Made by a program: the position numbers and the translations under genes
From: Phycisphaerales bacterium
GTDB lineage: Bacteria > Planctomycetota > Phycisphaerae > Phycisphaerales > UBA1924
Reading direction: 5' to 3'
Assembly: GCA_026982335.1 (NCBI GenBank)
Contig: JALSHH010000021.1
Location: 1-64,000 of the forward strand
Length of the DNA: 64,000 nt
The notes under the pieces: generated by a model
Databases searched by the model: none
Seen by the model: the letters and a program-made list of their open reading frames with translations, nothing else
What the model was told of the DNA's origin: nothing
Shown here: piece by piece, positions 5,650 through 60,195 of the stretch
How positions within the stretch are numbered: the stretch's first letter is position 1
How the letters are laid out: each line of letters starts with the position of its first letter

Positions 5650-6705
5650 GTGGAACTCGATGCCATCCTTCGTCAAGCACATGAAGCCGACGCTTCGGAT
5701 ATTCATATTGTCTCGGGTGAACCCGCCTCAATGCGAGTGCATCAGGTGATCAAACCCATGGGGGATGTTCCGATGGACCCTATGGTGGTCGCGGAGATGT
5801 TCAAGAGCATGTCCAACAAGGAGGTGCTTGAAATCTTTGCCCGTGATAAGGATGCGGATTTTTCATATGAGGTTCCTGGACTTGCCCGATATCGTGTCAA
5901 TGCTCATATGCAAAAAGGTGTGATCGGATTGGCGATGCGTGCGATCAAGACCAAGGTGCCGCCCTTGAGCGCCTTGGGACTGCCCGAAGTCATTGCCCGA
6001 CTAACTTATCTCCCGCGTGGGTTGGTACTCGTCACCGGCGATACTGGTTCAGGGAAATCAACCACGCTCGCGGCGATGATCCAGTCGATGAATCAGCGAT
6101 ACTCCAAGCACATCATCACCCTCGAAGACCCGGTCGAATATATGTTTGAATCGGACCAATGCCTGATCGAACAGCGTGAGCTCGGGCGAGACATGATCAG
6201 CTTTACCTCTGGACTCAAGCATGCGCTCCGTCAGGACCCAGATATTATTCTCGTGGGCGAAATGCGTGATTTGGAAACGACTTCACTGGCGATCTCGGCA
6301 GGTGAAACCGGGCATTTGGTGCTGTCTACGCTGCACACGGTCAATGCTTCGCAAACGGTGTCTCGTATTATTGACATGTACCCATCGGGTCAGCAGAGCC
6401 AGATTCGCTCGATGCTCTCGACGACCTTGCAGGCCGTGGTTTCACAAACGCTCTTTACCCGCTCGGATCGCCCAGGGATGGTGCCTGCGGTGGAGACGCT
6501 CTTATGCACGCCTGCGGTTCGCAACCTGATCCGTGAAAACAAAATCTTCGAGATTCCCAATGTGATCGAGACCTCGCGGGCGATTGGAATGAGCTCGTTG
6601 GATTCGTCAATTGCCGAGCTGTATTTTAACGGGACGATTTCCAAAGAGGACGCGATTGCCAAGGCTGTCTTCCCCGACAAGCTCGAACGCCAGCTTGTTG
6701 CCTAA
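5650..6705 (+). CDS. pilT: Type IV pilus retraction ATPase PilT
   Basis: GDTGSGKSTTLAAM Walker A, IITLEDPVEYMF, DPDIILVGEMRDLETT, AGETGHLVLSTLHT motifs. Confidence 0.95.
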   Translation: MELDAILRQAHEADASDIHIVSGEPASMRVHQVIKPMGDVPMDPMVVAEMFKSMSNKEVLEIFARDKDADFSYEVPGLARYRVNAHMQKGVIGLAMRAIKTKVPPLSALGLPEVIARLTYLPRGLVLVTGDTGSGKSTTLAAMIQSMNQRYSKHIITLEDPVEYMFESDQCLIEQRELGRDMISFTSGLKHALRQDPDIILVGEMRDLETTSLAISAGETGHLVLSTLHTVNASQTVSRIIDMYPSGQQSQIRSMLSTTLQAVVSQTLFTRSDRPGMVPAVETLLCTPAVRNLIRENKIFEIPNVIETSRAIGMSSLDSSIAELYFNGTISKEDAIAKAVFPDKLERQLVA

Positions 6706-6730
6706 AGCCATGAAGTAGGGAGAAGTTCTG

Positions 6731-7957
6731 ATGCCAAACTATCGTTTCCAAGTCAAATCACAGGACGGCAAGATCCAATCAGGCACGATGGCTGCCGACA
6801 GTGCTGCTGCTGCTGCTGCGATTCTGCGTAATCAGGGCGTTCATGTGATGGCGGTCGATCAAGACAAGGGGGTACACAAATCAGATGGGCTGATGAGCAC
6901 CCTCTCGGCAATGAACAACAAGAGAGCGACACAGAAGAATGTGCTCGATTTCACCACCCAGCTTTCAGTCATGATTCGCGCGGGGATCAATCTTCGTGCC
7001 GCCCTCGATGGCATCGCCGACCAGACCGATCATAAGGTTTTCAAGAAGGTTATCAATGAGCTCAAGGCCGATGTCGAGAGCGGCAAACAGTTTTCGGATG
7101 CCTTGGCCAAACACCCGAAGCTCTTCGGTCCTCTTTATGTCAACATGGTTCGGGCATCGGAAATGTCGGGGTCATTCTCGGAGATGCTCGATCGCATCGG
7201 TGGATACATCGCCCAGCAGATCGAAACCAAGAAAATGGTGATCGGTGCTTCGATTTATCCTGCGATCATTGGTGGCATGGCCGTTACGGTGACGGTCTTC
7301 CTGCTTACCTTCGTGCTCCCCAAGTTCTACACGATCTTTGAGGGCAAAGAGGATGTGCTCCCTTGGGCAACCAATTTTCTGATGATGCTCTCGAAGACGC
7401 TGACCGATCAATGGATGTTTCTCCTCGGCGGGGTTGCGGTCATCGGCGGAGCGAGTTTTGCTTTTGTCAAAACGGAGGTTGGGTCTTTTTGGGTGGACAA
7501 AATGAAACTTACCATCCCAGTGATCAAAGGCATGTTCCGGTCGCTGTATATTACCCGGTCACTCCAGACCATGGGTCAGCTCATCAACGCCGGCGTGCCC
7601 ATGCTCGATACCCTGACGATCACCTCTGAAATTTCGGGAAACAAAATTTTTGAGGGCATGTGGCGCAAAGTGCATGGGTCAGTCAAGCAAGGGCGAAAAA
7701 TTGCGGAACCACTTCAGGGCAGCACAATTTTACCAAAAGCGGTGATTCAAATGATCGCTGCAGGTGAGGAGTCCGGTAAGCTTGGAGAGGTGCTCGATGA
7801 GATATCGGTCTTTTATGCCAAGCAGCTCAAAGACCACATCAAAGCGGTTACCGGAATGATCGAGCCCATCATGATCATTCTAATGGGTTCAATCGTTGGA
7901 TTTATCGCCATGGCGATCATCCTTCCGATCTTCAAGATGAGCCAGCTCGTGTCGTAA
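6731..7957 (+). CDS. pilC: Type II secretion/type IV pilus inner membrane protein PilC/GspF
   Basis: GspF-type duplicated membrane domain; FTTQLSVMIRAGINLRAALDGI and AGEESGKLGEVLDEI; follows pilT. Confidence 0.92.
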   Translation: MPNYRFQVKSQDGKIQSGTMAADSAAAAAAILRNQGVHVMAVDQDKGVHKSDGLMSTLSAMNNKRATQKNVLDFTTQLSVMIRAGINLRAALDGIADQTDHKVFKKVINELKADVESGKQFSDALAKHPKLFGPLYVNMVRASEMSGSFSEMLDRIGGYIAQQIETKKMVIGASIYPAIIGGMAVTVTVFLLTFVLPKFYTIFEGKEDVLPWATNFLMMLSKTLTDQWMFLLGGVAVIGGASFAFVKTEVGSFWVDKMKLTIPVIKGMFRSLYITRSLQTMGQLINAGVPMLDTLTITSEISGNKIFEGMWRKVHGSVKQGRKIAEPLQGSTILPKAVIQMIAAGEESGKLGEVLDEISVFYAKQLKDHIKAVTGMIEPIMIILMGSIVGFIAMAIILPIFKMSQLVS

Positions 7958-53383: not shown

Positions 53384-54196
53384 ATGGATGTGATTGCCGA
53401 TTCTAATATCCAAGGTATCCTTCCTTTGATCATTGCGGTGTTCTCCGCTTCGGTTCTTGGAAGTCTTCATTGTGCGGGTATGTGTGGCGGGCTCATGTTC
53501 TTCGCATTGGGAGCGGATCAAAAGGGCGCCAAGGAAGTACTTTTGCGTCTTCAGAGCGCCTATCACGGCGGGCGTTTGCTCACCTACACACTTTTGGGCG
53601 TTATTGCAGGATTCGTCGGTCAAGCGATTGACTTTGGAGGTGGATTTGTAGGTGTCCAAAAGGGAGCGATGCTCTTTGCTGGGGTGATGATGATTGGATT
53701 CGGGCTCATCACACTCGCCCGCATCCGAGGAGTGAAGATCAAGCACATTGGGGTGCCCGGGGGGGTGCGTCGGTTGATCGAAGGTGCCCAGCGCAGCGCC
53801 TTTGGATTGACACCCTTTAAACGGGCGCTGGCGATCGGTCTGCTCACCGCGCTACTACCTTGCGGGTGGTTGTATGCCTTTGTATTTTTGGCAGCGGGCA
53901 CCGCCAGCCCGATTTGGGGCGGGCTGACCATGACCGCCTTTTGGATGGGTACGCTTCCGGTGATGGTTTCGCTGGGCGCGGGTATCCAGATGCTCACTGG
54001 TCGGCTTAATGCCAAGCTTCCGGTCATCACTGCTGTTGCGGTGATCGTGGTGGGGGTGTTCACAGCCATGGACGGGTTTGGGGTTTCAGAGATCACCCGC
54101 GAGTCGTTGGGGATTGATGATTTGCCCGATGCTGTTCCTCAAGCTGGTGAGGTCGATTGCCCGCTCTGTGAAACGGAAGATGTAGATGGTGGATGA
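53384..54196 (+). CDS. Sulfite exporter TauE/SafE-like (UreH-like) membrane protein
   Basis: GSLHCAGMCGGLMFFALG, LLTALLPCGWLYAFVFLAAGTASPIWGGLTMTAFWMGTLP. Confidence 0.85.
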   Translation: MDVIADSNIQGILPLIIAVFSASVLGSLHCAGMCGGLMFFALGADQKGAKEVLLRLQSAYHGGRLLTYTLLGVIAGFVGQAIDFGGGFVGVQKGAMLFAGVMMIGFGLITLARIRGVKIKHIGVPGGVRRLIEGAQRSAFGLTPFKRALAIGLLTALLPCGWLYAFVFLAAGTASPIWGGLTMTAFWMGTLPVMVSLGAGIQMLTGRLNAKLPVITAVAVIVVGVFTAMDGFGVSEITRESLGIDDLPDAVPQAGEVDCPLCETEDVDGG

Positions 54197-56633
54197 CATA
54201 TCGCCAGCAGACATTCTGTGCGATCATTGCACACTCCCTGTACCAGCAGGGTTGATCGAGCCCGGAGCCGAGCATCAGTTCTGTTGTAATGGGTGCAAGT
54301 CGGTCTGGAATGTGCTCCATGGTGCGGGTCTTGAAGGGTACTACAGCGTTCGCGATGCGGTAGATCCCAACGCCCAGCGTGTCACTTCGACCCAGGCATC
54401 CTACGAAGAACTCGACGATCCCGCTTTCCAGAGCACTTGTGTCGAAAACCTCCCCGGCGGGTATGCCCAGACTGATCTGCTGCTTGAAGGTATGCACTGT
54501 GCTGCTTGCGTCTGGCTGATCGAACGATTGCCGACGGTGCTTGAAGGGGTCGTCGAATCGCGTGCCAATATCCGCCGGCGAACAGCCACTGTTCGGTATC
54601 GCCCTGATCAGGTCAAGCTCTCCGAGGTCGCCCGTGGGCTTGATCAAATCGGATATGCAGCCCATCCGGCACGCGGAGCAGCTGCGCGCGAAGCGCGGGT
54701 GAAAGAAGATCGCAAGTTTCTTATTCGTGTTGGCGTTGCTGGCGCGATTGCGGGTAATGTCATGCTCTTGGCGATCGCTCTCCACAGCGGTGCGCTCGAA
54801 GGGATGTCCGATACTTGGAAAACTACTTTCCGATGGTATTCGATGGTCTTAGGTGTGCTTTCGTTGCTTTGGCCCGGGCGTGTATTTTTTACTGGTGCCA
54901 TCGCTGCGGTGCGCATGCGTGTTGCCCACCTCGATATCCCGATTGGACTTGCCTTGGCGGTGGGGGGGCTGTGGGGGGCATACAACACCATTGCAGGCAC
55001 TGGCGAAATTTACTTCGACTCGCTTTCGGTTTTGGTTTTCTTCCTGCTCGTTGGGCGATGGATCCAGCATCGCCAACAGCGCAACGCATCTGATCATGTC
55101 GAGTTGATGCTCACCCTTACGCCGACCAATGCCCTCAAGGTCAACGACGACGGCTCGACTACTCGTGTGCCCATCGAAGCCATCGAAGTGGGCATGCTCG
55201 TTGAGGTCGAAGCGGGCGGGTCTATTCCTGCTGATGGTGTTATCGAAACGGGCGAAACCAGTCTCGATACTTCTTTTATCTCTGGCGAGTCTCGCCCGAT
55301 CCCCGCGAGCATCGGCGATGAGGTCGTCGCTGGAGCAACGAACCTGCGTTCGCCGATCCGCATGCGCGTGACAGCAGTGGGGGAATCGACTCGCGTGGGC
55401 AAACTCATGCACCTTGTCGCTTCGGCCTCGGCAGAAAAAGCTCCAATTGTGCAACTTGCCGATCGCATCGCATCGAGATTCGTCCTCATCGTCATCACAC
55501 TTGCGCTCATCACGCTGGTGTTTTGGACGATCAGGATTGATCTCAACCAAGGCATCGAACTCGCCACTGCGTTGTTGATCGTCACCTGTCCGTGTGCTCT
55601 GGGGCTTGCCACTCCGATGTCGATGTCGATTGCGATGGGGCGGGCAGCCAAGGCGGGCATCTTGATCAAATCTGCATCGGCGATCGAAGCAATGGCCAAG
55701 CCGGGCATCATGATTCTTGATAAGACCGGTACCATCACCAAAGGGCAGATGAGTTTGATTAACGCCGAGTGTGATCCGGAGTTGCTCAAAATGGCCAGTG
55801 CGATCGAGGCCCATTCAAACCATCCAATCGCCCGTGCGATCGTTGATTCGGTTGATGAATCGGTCGGCGAGGGCGATCGGCTCGAAGCTGCCGATATCAA
55901 CCAAACCATCGGGGCGGGTATTTCAGGCGTGGTCGATGGGCAAACAATCACCATCGGCTCACCGGGATATATCGACTCGATCCATCGACTCGATTCCAAA
56001 GCCCAAGCAGCGATCGAACGGATGATCGAGCAGGGGTTGACCCCGATTGTTGTGCACGCCGATGCGTTTGGGTTCGGTGTTTTGGGTATTGGTGATCCCA
56101 TTCGCCAAGAAGCACCCGATGCGATTGGGTCCCTCGAAGACGCTGGGTGGGATTTGAGTTTGTGTTCGGGGGATCATCCCCAGATTGTTGTCAGCGTTGC
56201 CAAAGAGGTTGGCATCAACCAAGCAACGGGTTCGGTCTCGCCCGAAGGCAAGGCCAAGCGTGTTCGTGACCTCCAATCGGAGACCGATTGCCGGGTTGTG
56301 ATGGTCGGTGATGGGGTCAATGATGCTGCTGCCTTGGCCAGCGCTGATGTGGGCATTGCTGTCCATGGCGGGGCCGAGGCCTCGCTCGAAGCTGCCGACA
56401 TTTATCTCACCAAGCAAGGCGTTGCCCCATTGGTTGATCTTGCATCGCTCAGCGTCCACACGATGCGGACGATTCGCCTCTGCCTTGTTTTTTCGGTGTG
56501 CTACAATGCCATGGCTGCGATTTTGGCCATGACTGGGATCATCAATGCCCTTATCGCGGCCATCATCATGCCGATCAGTTCGCTCACTGTTGTCGCGCTG
56601 AGCACACGCAAGTGGAATGGGCCAAGCACATAG
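54186..56633 (+). CDS. ccoI: Copper-translocating P-type ATPase CcoI
   Basis: CDHCTLP...FCCNGCKSVW N-term metal site, CPCALGLATP, DKTGTITKG, MVGDGVNDAAAL; flanked by cco genes. Confidence 0.95.
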   Translation: MVDDISPADILCDHCTLPVPAGLIEPGAEHQFCCNGCKSVWNVLHGAGLEGYYSVRDAVDPNAQRVTSTQASYEELDDPAFQSTCVENLPGGYAQTDLLLEGMHCAACVWLIERLPTVLEGVVESRANIRRRTATVRYRPDQVKLSEVARGLDQIGYAAHPARGAAAREARVKEDRKFLIRVGVAGAIAGNVMLLAIALHSGALEGMSDTWKTTFRWYSMVLGVLSLLWPGRVFFTGAIAAVRMRVAHLDIPIGLALAVGGLWGAYNTIAGTGEIYFDSLSVLVFFLLVGRWIQHRQQRNASDHVELMLTLTPTNALKVNDDGSTTRVPIEAIEVGMLVEVEAGGSIPADGVIETGETSLDTSFISGESRPIPASIGDEVVAGATNLRSPIRMRVTAVGESTRVGKLMHLVASASAEKAPIVQLADRIASRFVLIVITLALITLVFWTIRIDLNQGIELATALLIVTCPCALGLATPMSMSIAMGRAAKAGILIKSASAIEAMAKPGIMILDKTGTITKGQMSLINAECDPELLKMASAIEAHSNHPIARAIVDSVDESVGEGDRLEAADINQTIGAGISGVVDGQTITIGSPGYIDSIHRLDSKAQAAIERMIEQGLTPIVVHADAFGFGVLGIGDPIRQEAPDAIGSLEDAGWDLSLCSGDHPQIVVSVAKEVGINQATGSVSPEGKAKRVRDLQSETDCRVVMVGDGVNDAAALASADVGIAVHGGAEASLEAADIYLTKQGVAPLVDLASLSVHTMRTIRLCLVFSVCYNAMAAILAMTGIINALIAAIIMPISSLTVVALSTRKWNGPST

Positions 56634-56642
56634 GAATGGATC

Positions 56643-56843
56643 ATGTCTGTATTGTTCATTATGATCCCGGTTGCACTGATCCTTGCGGGCCTTGGCATTG
56701 CTGCCTTTGTCATCGCAGCCAAACGAGGGCAGTTCGACGATCTTGATACCCCCGCCATTCGCGCGGTCTTCGATGACGACGAGGCGATTCCTTCACGCAA
56801 ATCATCCACCCAAACCGATCAGGAAACCAAAGCCGATGAATAG
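56643..56843 (+). CDS. ccoS: cbb3-type oxidase assembly protein CcoS
   Basis: MSVLFIMIPVALILAGLGIAAFVIAAKRGQFDDLDTPAIRAVFDDD, canonical CcoS. Confidence 0.93.
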   Translation: MSVLFIMIPVALILAGLGIAAFVIAAKRGQFDDLDTPAIRAVFDDDEAIPSRKSSTQTDQETKADE

Positions 56844-59466: not shown

Positions 59467-59652
59467 ATGAAAGCAGAAACCATCCTCGCCGAGTTCAACA
59501 GAATTCGTAAAGACCTCGACGAAGACAAATCCGACATCGAGTGGCTTACTTTGCACCATGCTTTTTGTTTCATCTCCTACAAGATGGGCGATTTTCAGGA
59601 GTACCTTGACGATCAGGCCCAGCGTGGGGCCTTCGATGAGTTCGAGGATTGA
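59467..59652 (+). CDS. Small hypothetical protein
   Basis: 61 aa acidic ORF starting just after the permease; MKAETILAEFNRIRKDLDEDKSDIEWLTLHHAFCFIS. Confidence 0.5.
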   Translation: MKAETILAEFNRIRKDLDEDKSDIEWLTLHHAFCFISYKMGDFQEYLDDQAQRGAFDEFED

Positions 59653-59794
59653 TCGACCAGATCGCCCAAAACTGCCTGTTTGGGGGCAAAGTATGCAACC
59701 ACTCTTGCAATCAACCCGAATATGCCGATAATGGATTTATGGTCAAGGCAGCAGGGTTGCAAGTGATGGAAACCATTACAACCACCCAGACGAT

Positions 59795-60070
59795 TGGCCA
59801 CGACCGTGGCGCTCCGGAGGACATCCGATGCACCAACGGGCGATGAGCCCCGAGTGACGGCTTGGGGAGAAGAACTCCGGCGGCGGGCATACTCCCGTGA
59901 CGGCTGGGCTGGAAATTTTCTTCAAGGAGGTGATTCAGTGAACAAGTATGAATGTACGAAGGGGTTGCGCCCTTAGAGCGACAACTCGACGGAGTTGCCC
60001 ATTGCGCAACCCTCAGATTACAGATGCCATAGCGCATGGGCCGTTTCCAAATCCGGAAGCGGCCTTTTTC
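59795..60070 (+). ncRNA. Candidate structured RNA / mini-ORF RNA (unassigned)
   Basis: Two related hairpins sharing GTGACGGCT, super-Shine-Dalgarno AAGGAGGTGATTCAG, nested hairpin, intrinsic terminator; 5' end unknown; does not match RNase P, tmRNA or SRP conserved motifs that I know. Confidence 0.4.
60038..60070 (+). terminator. Intrinsic terminator
   Basis: GGCCGTTTCC-AAATCC-GGAAGCGGCC followed by TTTTTC (one G-U pair). Confidence 0.85.
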
Positions 60071-60195
60071 TGTCCCCCTTTTTTCCGTCTCCAATGCATT
60101 GGCCATATCCAGCTCTGTTTCTACATGTGAGTACACTCTTTTCTCCTCCCTCCGAAAGCCCGGAGGAGGAGAGTTTGCAAGAAAACATGAGCTGC

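Follow-up and report, generated by a model that had tools for sequence, protein, structure and literature searches.

Several bacterial small RNAs, such as SgrS/SgrT, RNAIII and SR1/SR1P, are stand-alone RNAs of a regulatory type that also encode a short peptide, while the tmRNA is a single-copy structured RNA with a short ORF that ends in a helix. Few strongly structured RNAs are present as a single copy throughout an entire bacterial phylum; examples are RNase P, tmRNA, SRP and 6S, and they are mostly central to the cell. From the Planctomycetes, a candidate RNA termed the Rhodopirellula-1 motif has been reported, which is also found in Proteobacteria, is listed as probably cis-regulatory, and is without an Rfam number (PMC2864571).

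Here we analyze a stretch of 64,000 nucleotides from a Phycisphaerales bacterium, hereinafter the window, which carries an uncatalogued RNA that comparison across genomes identifies as a stand-alone, single-copy gene found across much of Planctomycetota. That the structured RNA family and its micro-ORF are genuine is near certain. An earlier note on this DNA had proposed an undescribed structured RNA bearing no likeness to tmRNA, 6S and other known families, and model searches with Rfam 15 agree with it. At gathering thresholds, the window as a whole gave two tRNAs and nothing else, and 30 loci with distant members of the family likewise gave tRNAs only; positions 59650-60190 yielded only chance-level matches. 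Neither Rfam (RF00023) nor ARAGORN matched a tmRNA at the locus, and the 6S model (RF00013), which detected its controls, matched nothing in the window or in the genome to which it belongs. The CC2171 model (RF01867) scored 17.8 bits at the locus (E 0.14) against a gathering score of 75; it matched Caulobacter alone among the controls and nothing in the organism's own genome. The absence of a gathering-level model match thus rules out CC2171, tmRNA and 6S as identities for the locus. A type I toxin-antitoxin RNA was also rejected: the hydrophobic membrane peptide of such systems was not found, the encoded peptides being short, polar and mostly basic. A literature search found no description of this RNA in the papers it covered; the Rhodopirellula-1 motif, by its published description, would differ in its probable cis-regulatory role and its occurrence in Proteobacteria as well (PMC2864571).

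Organization of the locus

The predicted transcript and its parts, all on the plus strand, are as follows:

59739-60070 (+): whole predicted transcript, ~332 nt; start placed by the -10 box and P1, end by the terminator
59705-59732 (+): promoter-like -35 TTGCAA and -10 GATAAT with a 16-nt spacer, from a promoter scan; both boxes recur in homologs
59740-59746 (+): 5' strand (TGGTCAA) of P1, the 5'-terminal closing helix; partner 59794-59800
59763-59779 (+): hairpin within P1 (GTGATGG AAA CCATTAC), variable among relatives
59794-59800 (+): 3' strand (TTGGCCA) of P1; covariation on a MAFFT alignment
59801-59842 (+): H0, hairpin of varying length, CG/CG at its base; covariation; absent from Planctomycetia-type copies
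59848-59867 (+): H1, hairpin with a GACG-type loop (YGACGG); covariation
59876-59908 (+): H2, two-part hairpin; asymmetric internal loop with GACG; covariation
59888-59893 (+): apical loop of H2 (CATACT), complement of ORF bases 59945-59950 (AGTATG)
59923-59938 (+): extended anti-16S sequence CAAGGAGGTGATTCAG, predicted ribosome-binding site, from pairing with the 16S tail
59938-59976 (+): micro-ORF VNKYECTKGLRP, GTG start and TAG stop; conservation of frame, stop and synonymous codons
59962-59969 (+): 5' strand of H3, GGGTTGCG, formed by the final ORF codons; partner 60005-60012; compensatory pairs
59982-59997 (+): inner hairpin of H3 with a CGACGG loop, directly after the stop codon; covariation
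60005-60012 (+): 3' strand of H3, CGCAACCC; covariation
60038-60069 (+): intrinsic terminator, from a terminator scan

The two related hairpins, the Shine-Dalgarno sequence, the ORF from GTG 59938 to TAG 59976, the nested hairpin and the terminator noted earlier are all present as placed. H1 and H2 share a GACG(G) motif in the window, and H3 spans 59962-60012 overall, enclosing the hairpin at 59982-59997. Two details of that description change: its parts do lie at 59795-60070, but the RNA is predicted to begin about 55 nt earlier, with the promoter-like boxes and P1, and the "very strong Shine-Dalgarno" is there but is in fact an extended anti-16S sequence.

Distribution and genomic context

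Blastn recovered 18 core-covering homologs in 60 related genomes, one further match being to the flank only; their alignment delimits a conserved body of ~200-225 nt, with core lengths of 201-226 nt. A DNA pattern built on the Shine-Dalgarno sequence and the ORF returned 82 loci among 85,462 species. Of these, 80 are labelled Planctomycetota (Phycisphaerales, Planctomycetaceae, Kuenenia and others) and two carry other labels, one a cyanobacterium and the other a deltaproteobacterium, which may be mis-assigned bins. A covariance model from 19 sequences (R1), with which the window locus scores 192 bits, found matches in 104 of the 394 Planctomycetota genomes searched. With a broader model from 36 sequences (R2), 192 of 348 genomes had a match, covering 130 of 223 genera. 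Homologs, whose absence the earlier note had named as a refutation, are abundant, and with either model the copy number is nearly always one per genome. Nearly all weak matches inspected by eye retain the Shine-Dalgarno sequence, the ORF and H3; three weak R1 matches (L180, L182 and L197) were rejected as false, as they lack the Shine-Dalgarno sequence. No match was found in the plasmid collection searched.

Several good genomes from the genus of the window gave no match to R1 or R2, and whole families of Planctomycetota gave none to R2; hence, the RNA is widespread and not universal, being either dispensable or divergent beyond the reach of the models. Four genomes of that genus at 92-94% completeness (G006, G011, G013 and G020) match neither model, and in this sub-clade the RNA has apparently been lost or has diverged.

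The short ORF, the helix over its end and the terminator downstream are the classic parts of a leader or attenuator, and on that reading the RNA would regulate the gene that follows it. In the window, the next downstream gene is on the opposite strand, and its product matches the transglutaminase core slightly below the Pfam cut-off. Across the family, by a simple and imperfect ORF calling, the first downstream ORF of at least 120 aa lies on the same strand in 42 loci and on the opposite strand in 35 of the 77, and falls into 49 clusters, so that no same-strand gene is conserved there. Such variation in both strand and gene points to the RNA being a gene of its own, as the earlier note had argued from the antisense neighbor, and the leader reading, already largely refuted by context, is scarcely credible.

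Upstream, an ABC transporter operon (ABC_tran, ABC-3) with a small protein is common to many relatives, within the near lineage only. This protein (59467-59652, plus strand), which follows the ABC-3 operon, is conserved, has 61 aa (MKAETILAEFNRIRKDLDEDKSDIEWLTLHHAFCFISYKMGDFQEYLDDQ...) and is without a Pfam match. Elsewhere in the window, 54186-56843 (plus strand) encodes a heavy-metal P-type ATPase and, after it, a FixS/CcoS cbb3-oxidase maturation protein.

Conserved structure and the ends of the transcript

On a covariance-model alignment of 83 sequences, 94.7% of the cells are paired and two-sided changes occur in 34 of 39 pairs; double changes number 358 cells as against 91 in shuffles (0/500). 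Since this alignment is fitted to the structure, we repeated the count on a structure-free MAFFT alignment of the first 19 sequences, where two-sided changes are seen in 27 of 39 pairs and double changes in 62 cells versus 14.5 in shuffles (0/500). Sliding the helix partners on the MAFFT alignment collapses the covariation. Covarying hairpins, which had been named as the support to look for, are thus evident on both alignments. In H1, all 7 pairs show two-sided changes with 97.9% of cells paired (83-sequence alignment), and H3 shows compensation from C-G to U-A and from G-C to A-U. The 332 nt from 59739 to 60070 fold better than 100 of 100 shuffles (z -2.96), and their centroid fold contains the covarying helices. 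We rejected a possible pairing between H2 and the 3' strand of H3 (CAGCC/GGCUG), since it disappears in loci where that strand is CGCAACCC, as in the window. Two loci, L031 (about 7094-7271, minus strand) and L080 (about 6650-6816, plus strand), have an extra hairpin-forming insert inside H3, directly after the stop; a terminator scan of this pair was negative.

A -35 TTGC and a -10 GAT(A)AT/GATACT stand at the same place across homologs of the family, the Phycisphaerales members having a -10 box GATAAT or GATACT upstream of the body. Within ~6-10 nt after the -10 box comes the P1 strand, usually UCGCGG, whose partner, CCGCGA, lies at the entry to H0. In a separate MAFFT alignment of 53 sequences, pairing is preserved in 93.7% of P1 cells, and 5 of its 6 pairs show two-sided changes; the hairpin inside P1 has such changes in 6 of 6 pairs but merely 63.6% of its cells paired. 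In copies without P1 and H0, a -10 box lies near H1 in 11 of 25 versus 10 of 175 control stretches. The conserved -10 box and the covarying P1, together with the -10 box near H1 in the copies that lack P1, indicate that the 5' end is fixed. At the other end, an intrinsic terminator is found at most 150 nt past H3 in 120 of 135 loci, compared with 49 of 675 control stretches. Taken together, the promoter, the 5' helix and the terminator predict a discrete transcript.

This bears on the possibility of a dual-function base-pairing sRNA, in which loops or other unpaired segments would regulate mRNAs in trans while the micro-ORF serves as a separate second function. The comparative evidence of promoter, 5' helix and terminator points to the stand-alone transcript unit of such an sRNA, and the terminator, the conserved GACG loops and the single copy speak in its favor; a short ORF that would be translated is likewise supported by comparison. 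However, among single-stranded stretches the anti-16S site, a ribosome-binding site, is the most conserved, and the close overlap of ORF and helix makes separate functions less likely, so that we regard this reading as improbable.

The anti-16S site

The 16S rRNA of the same genome ends at its 3' terminus in GGCTGGATCACCTCCTTTCT. All 83 sequences offer a stretch of 16-19 contiguous nt able to pair with this tail, G-U pairs being allowed. The 14-mer AAGGAGGTGATYCA occurs at two places in the genome, the RNA locus and, complemented, the 16S 3' end. Across the phylum, AAGGAGGTGRTYCAGTG is present in 27 of 247 genomes, never twice in one, and lies inside the covariance-model match in 23 of these 27; for the remaining four, the place of the match is unlisted or the genome was outside the model search.

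The length and uniqueness of this complement would suit a decoy that ties up 30S subunits or the 3' ends of pre-16S rRNA, with the ORF as a by-product. Such a decoy would not account for the selection on the frame and stop of the ORF, nor for those several families that shorten or alter the complement yet retain the start codon; accordingly, we see very little chance of its being correct.

Single folds had suggested that an upstream strand sequesters the Shine-Dalgarno sequence, and this was rejected: together with the start codon it has an unpaired value of 0.345 compared to 0.367 with shuffled flanks, no extra hiding being predicted. Since the site is no more paired than with shuffled flanks, it is not itself the gate.

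The micro-ORF and its overlap with the fold

Reading from GTG, 81 of 82 ORFs reach an in-frame stop after 10-14 codons, as against 0 of 82 in either of the other two frames. The spacing from GTG to TGT changes by threes only, the anchor codon lying 9, 12 or 15 nt from GTG. A leucine is retained in 69 of 70 distinct ORFs, using five codons, the threonine codon varies at the third position, and each of the three stop codons occurs. The search pattern demanded GTG, TGT and GGG, which makes their invariance partly one of construction; in loci found by the covariance models, the start codon is also ATG or TTG. By this comparison, the micro-ORF is under coding selection. The earlier alternatives of an autonomous small RNA or a short-peptide transcript would hence both apply, as a structured RNA with a micro-ORF. 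The 60-codon frame at 59794-59976, which the earlier note had set up as a possible refutation should it prove a conserved protein, is rejected as a gene, because lengths upstream of GTG vary among homologs by non-multiples of three; the frame is kept only from GTG to the stop, and it is the 12-codon ORF that is conserved.

Typical peptides are VTQCDCTGGLRR or VNKYECTKGLRP, with an end D-C-T-x-G-L-R conserved within Phycisphaerales, where the peptide may matter. Across families, the peptide is almost wholly different (VSNLSQDLNMRSNDRTLRR, MMIVRGSIRRWVR, VGSPNRRPSS, VAYNIGWLP) with the surrounding RNA frame kept: far members retain the start, the anti-16S site and the stop at the H3 5' strand while the peptide drifts, and in several families the start codon is kept with a shortened or altered anti-16S complement. 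In one family of the same order, L151 (about 2397-2647) and L155 (about 2390-2614) have a Cys-rich micro-ORF of 32-33 codons (VIELCTPRPGGKCCCGDSCDGNCCCGRKRIGLR), with the same GLR-stop end within H3.

The ORF is also woven into the fold. Its final codons (GGG-CUG-CG) form the 5' strand of H3, an overlap shown by comparison, and, as that strand covaries, these codons are selected twice. Codons 3-6 in turn are complementary to the H2 loop, with the loop/ORF pairs CAUACU/AGUAUG in the window and GUACAG/CUGUAC, AUACA/UGUAU, CAGUCA/UGACUG, GUCACA/UGUGAC and ACUGA/UCAGU in homologs. The mean best pairing of loop and ORF is 5.68 as against 5.20 +- 0.08 with partners permuted (0/300), in a test that treats related sequences as independent and with a pairing register that slides; for these two reasons, we grade the loop-ORF contact as supported and not as proven.

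The main rival to our preferred reading is a micro-protein gene, in which the gene makes the peptide as its product and the role of the structured RNA is confined to controlling or protecting its mRNA. The signs of coding selection at the leucine, threonine and stop codons agree with it, as do the Cys-rich versions of L151 and L155. Against this, nearly all of the peptide has changed across families while the RNA frame remained constant, and the constancy of some codons is accounted for by pairing at the RNA level. We thus consider a micro-protein unlikely, if still the foremost of the alternatives.

A possible ribosome-responsive switch

In our preferred reading, the locus is a stand-alone structured RNA that also codes, and the ribosomes that translate its micro-ORF would switch its fold; on this reading we are evenly balanced between belief and doubt. 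The RNA would be transcribed from its own promoter, close its 5' end through P1, fold into H0-H3 and stop at the intrinsic terminator. The 16-19-nt complement would be strong enough to draw 30S subunits, and ribosomes would then translate the 9-14 codons. Given that the H2 loop is able to pair with the early codons and that the final codons make up one side of H3, any ribosome translating the ORF would by this geometry have to disrupt the loop-ORF contact and unwind H3. Two states would result, one ribosome-free and fully folded, and the other ribosome-engaged, with the H2 loop and the H3 3' strand released. The RNA would report translation capacity in trans through these released segments or through a protein that reads the GACG-loop hairpins. 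We infer the switch as its function, and any target in trans, from this arrangement. The retention of start, anti-16S site and stop under a drifting peptide favors translation itself over any one fixed peptide. The fuller proposal, that the RNA samples free 30S subunits and that translation of the micro-ORF toggles the fold to signal translation capacity in trans, we advance more tentatively, with belief falling somewhat short of doubt; if true, this would be a coding RNA with translation as its input, not a peptide as its purpose.

Comparison with known systems

In the Rfam consensus of the Caulobacter sRNA CC2171 (RF01867), the same anti-16S stretch appears with GUG after it, as AAAGGAGGUGAUCCAGUG, and there is also a GC-rich terminator; the likeness is confined to what any perfect 16S complement would give. 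The presence of AAAGGAGGUGAUCCAGUG raises the question of whether CC2171 is also a coding RNA with an anti-16S site. With tmRNA, the Planctomycetota RNA shares its single copy, its structured nature and a short ORF with its end in a helix, but unlike tmRNA, it has its own predicted ribosome-binding site and start codon. In contrast to SgrS/SgrT, RNAIII and SR1/SR1P, the codons of its ORF serve as one side of a covarying helix and are able to pair with a loop, and it combines a 16-19-nt complement of 16S rRNA with a phylum-wide range. Thus, three features that are seldom combined come together here: a near-complete complement of the 16S 3' end, a micro-ORF under selection, and covarying helices built from ORF codons. 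As a member of no curated family, this RNA offers a clear and testable target for the genetics of Planctomycetota, and, if the switch holds, it would represent a new way to couple translation to RNA structure.
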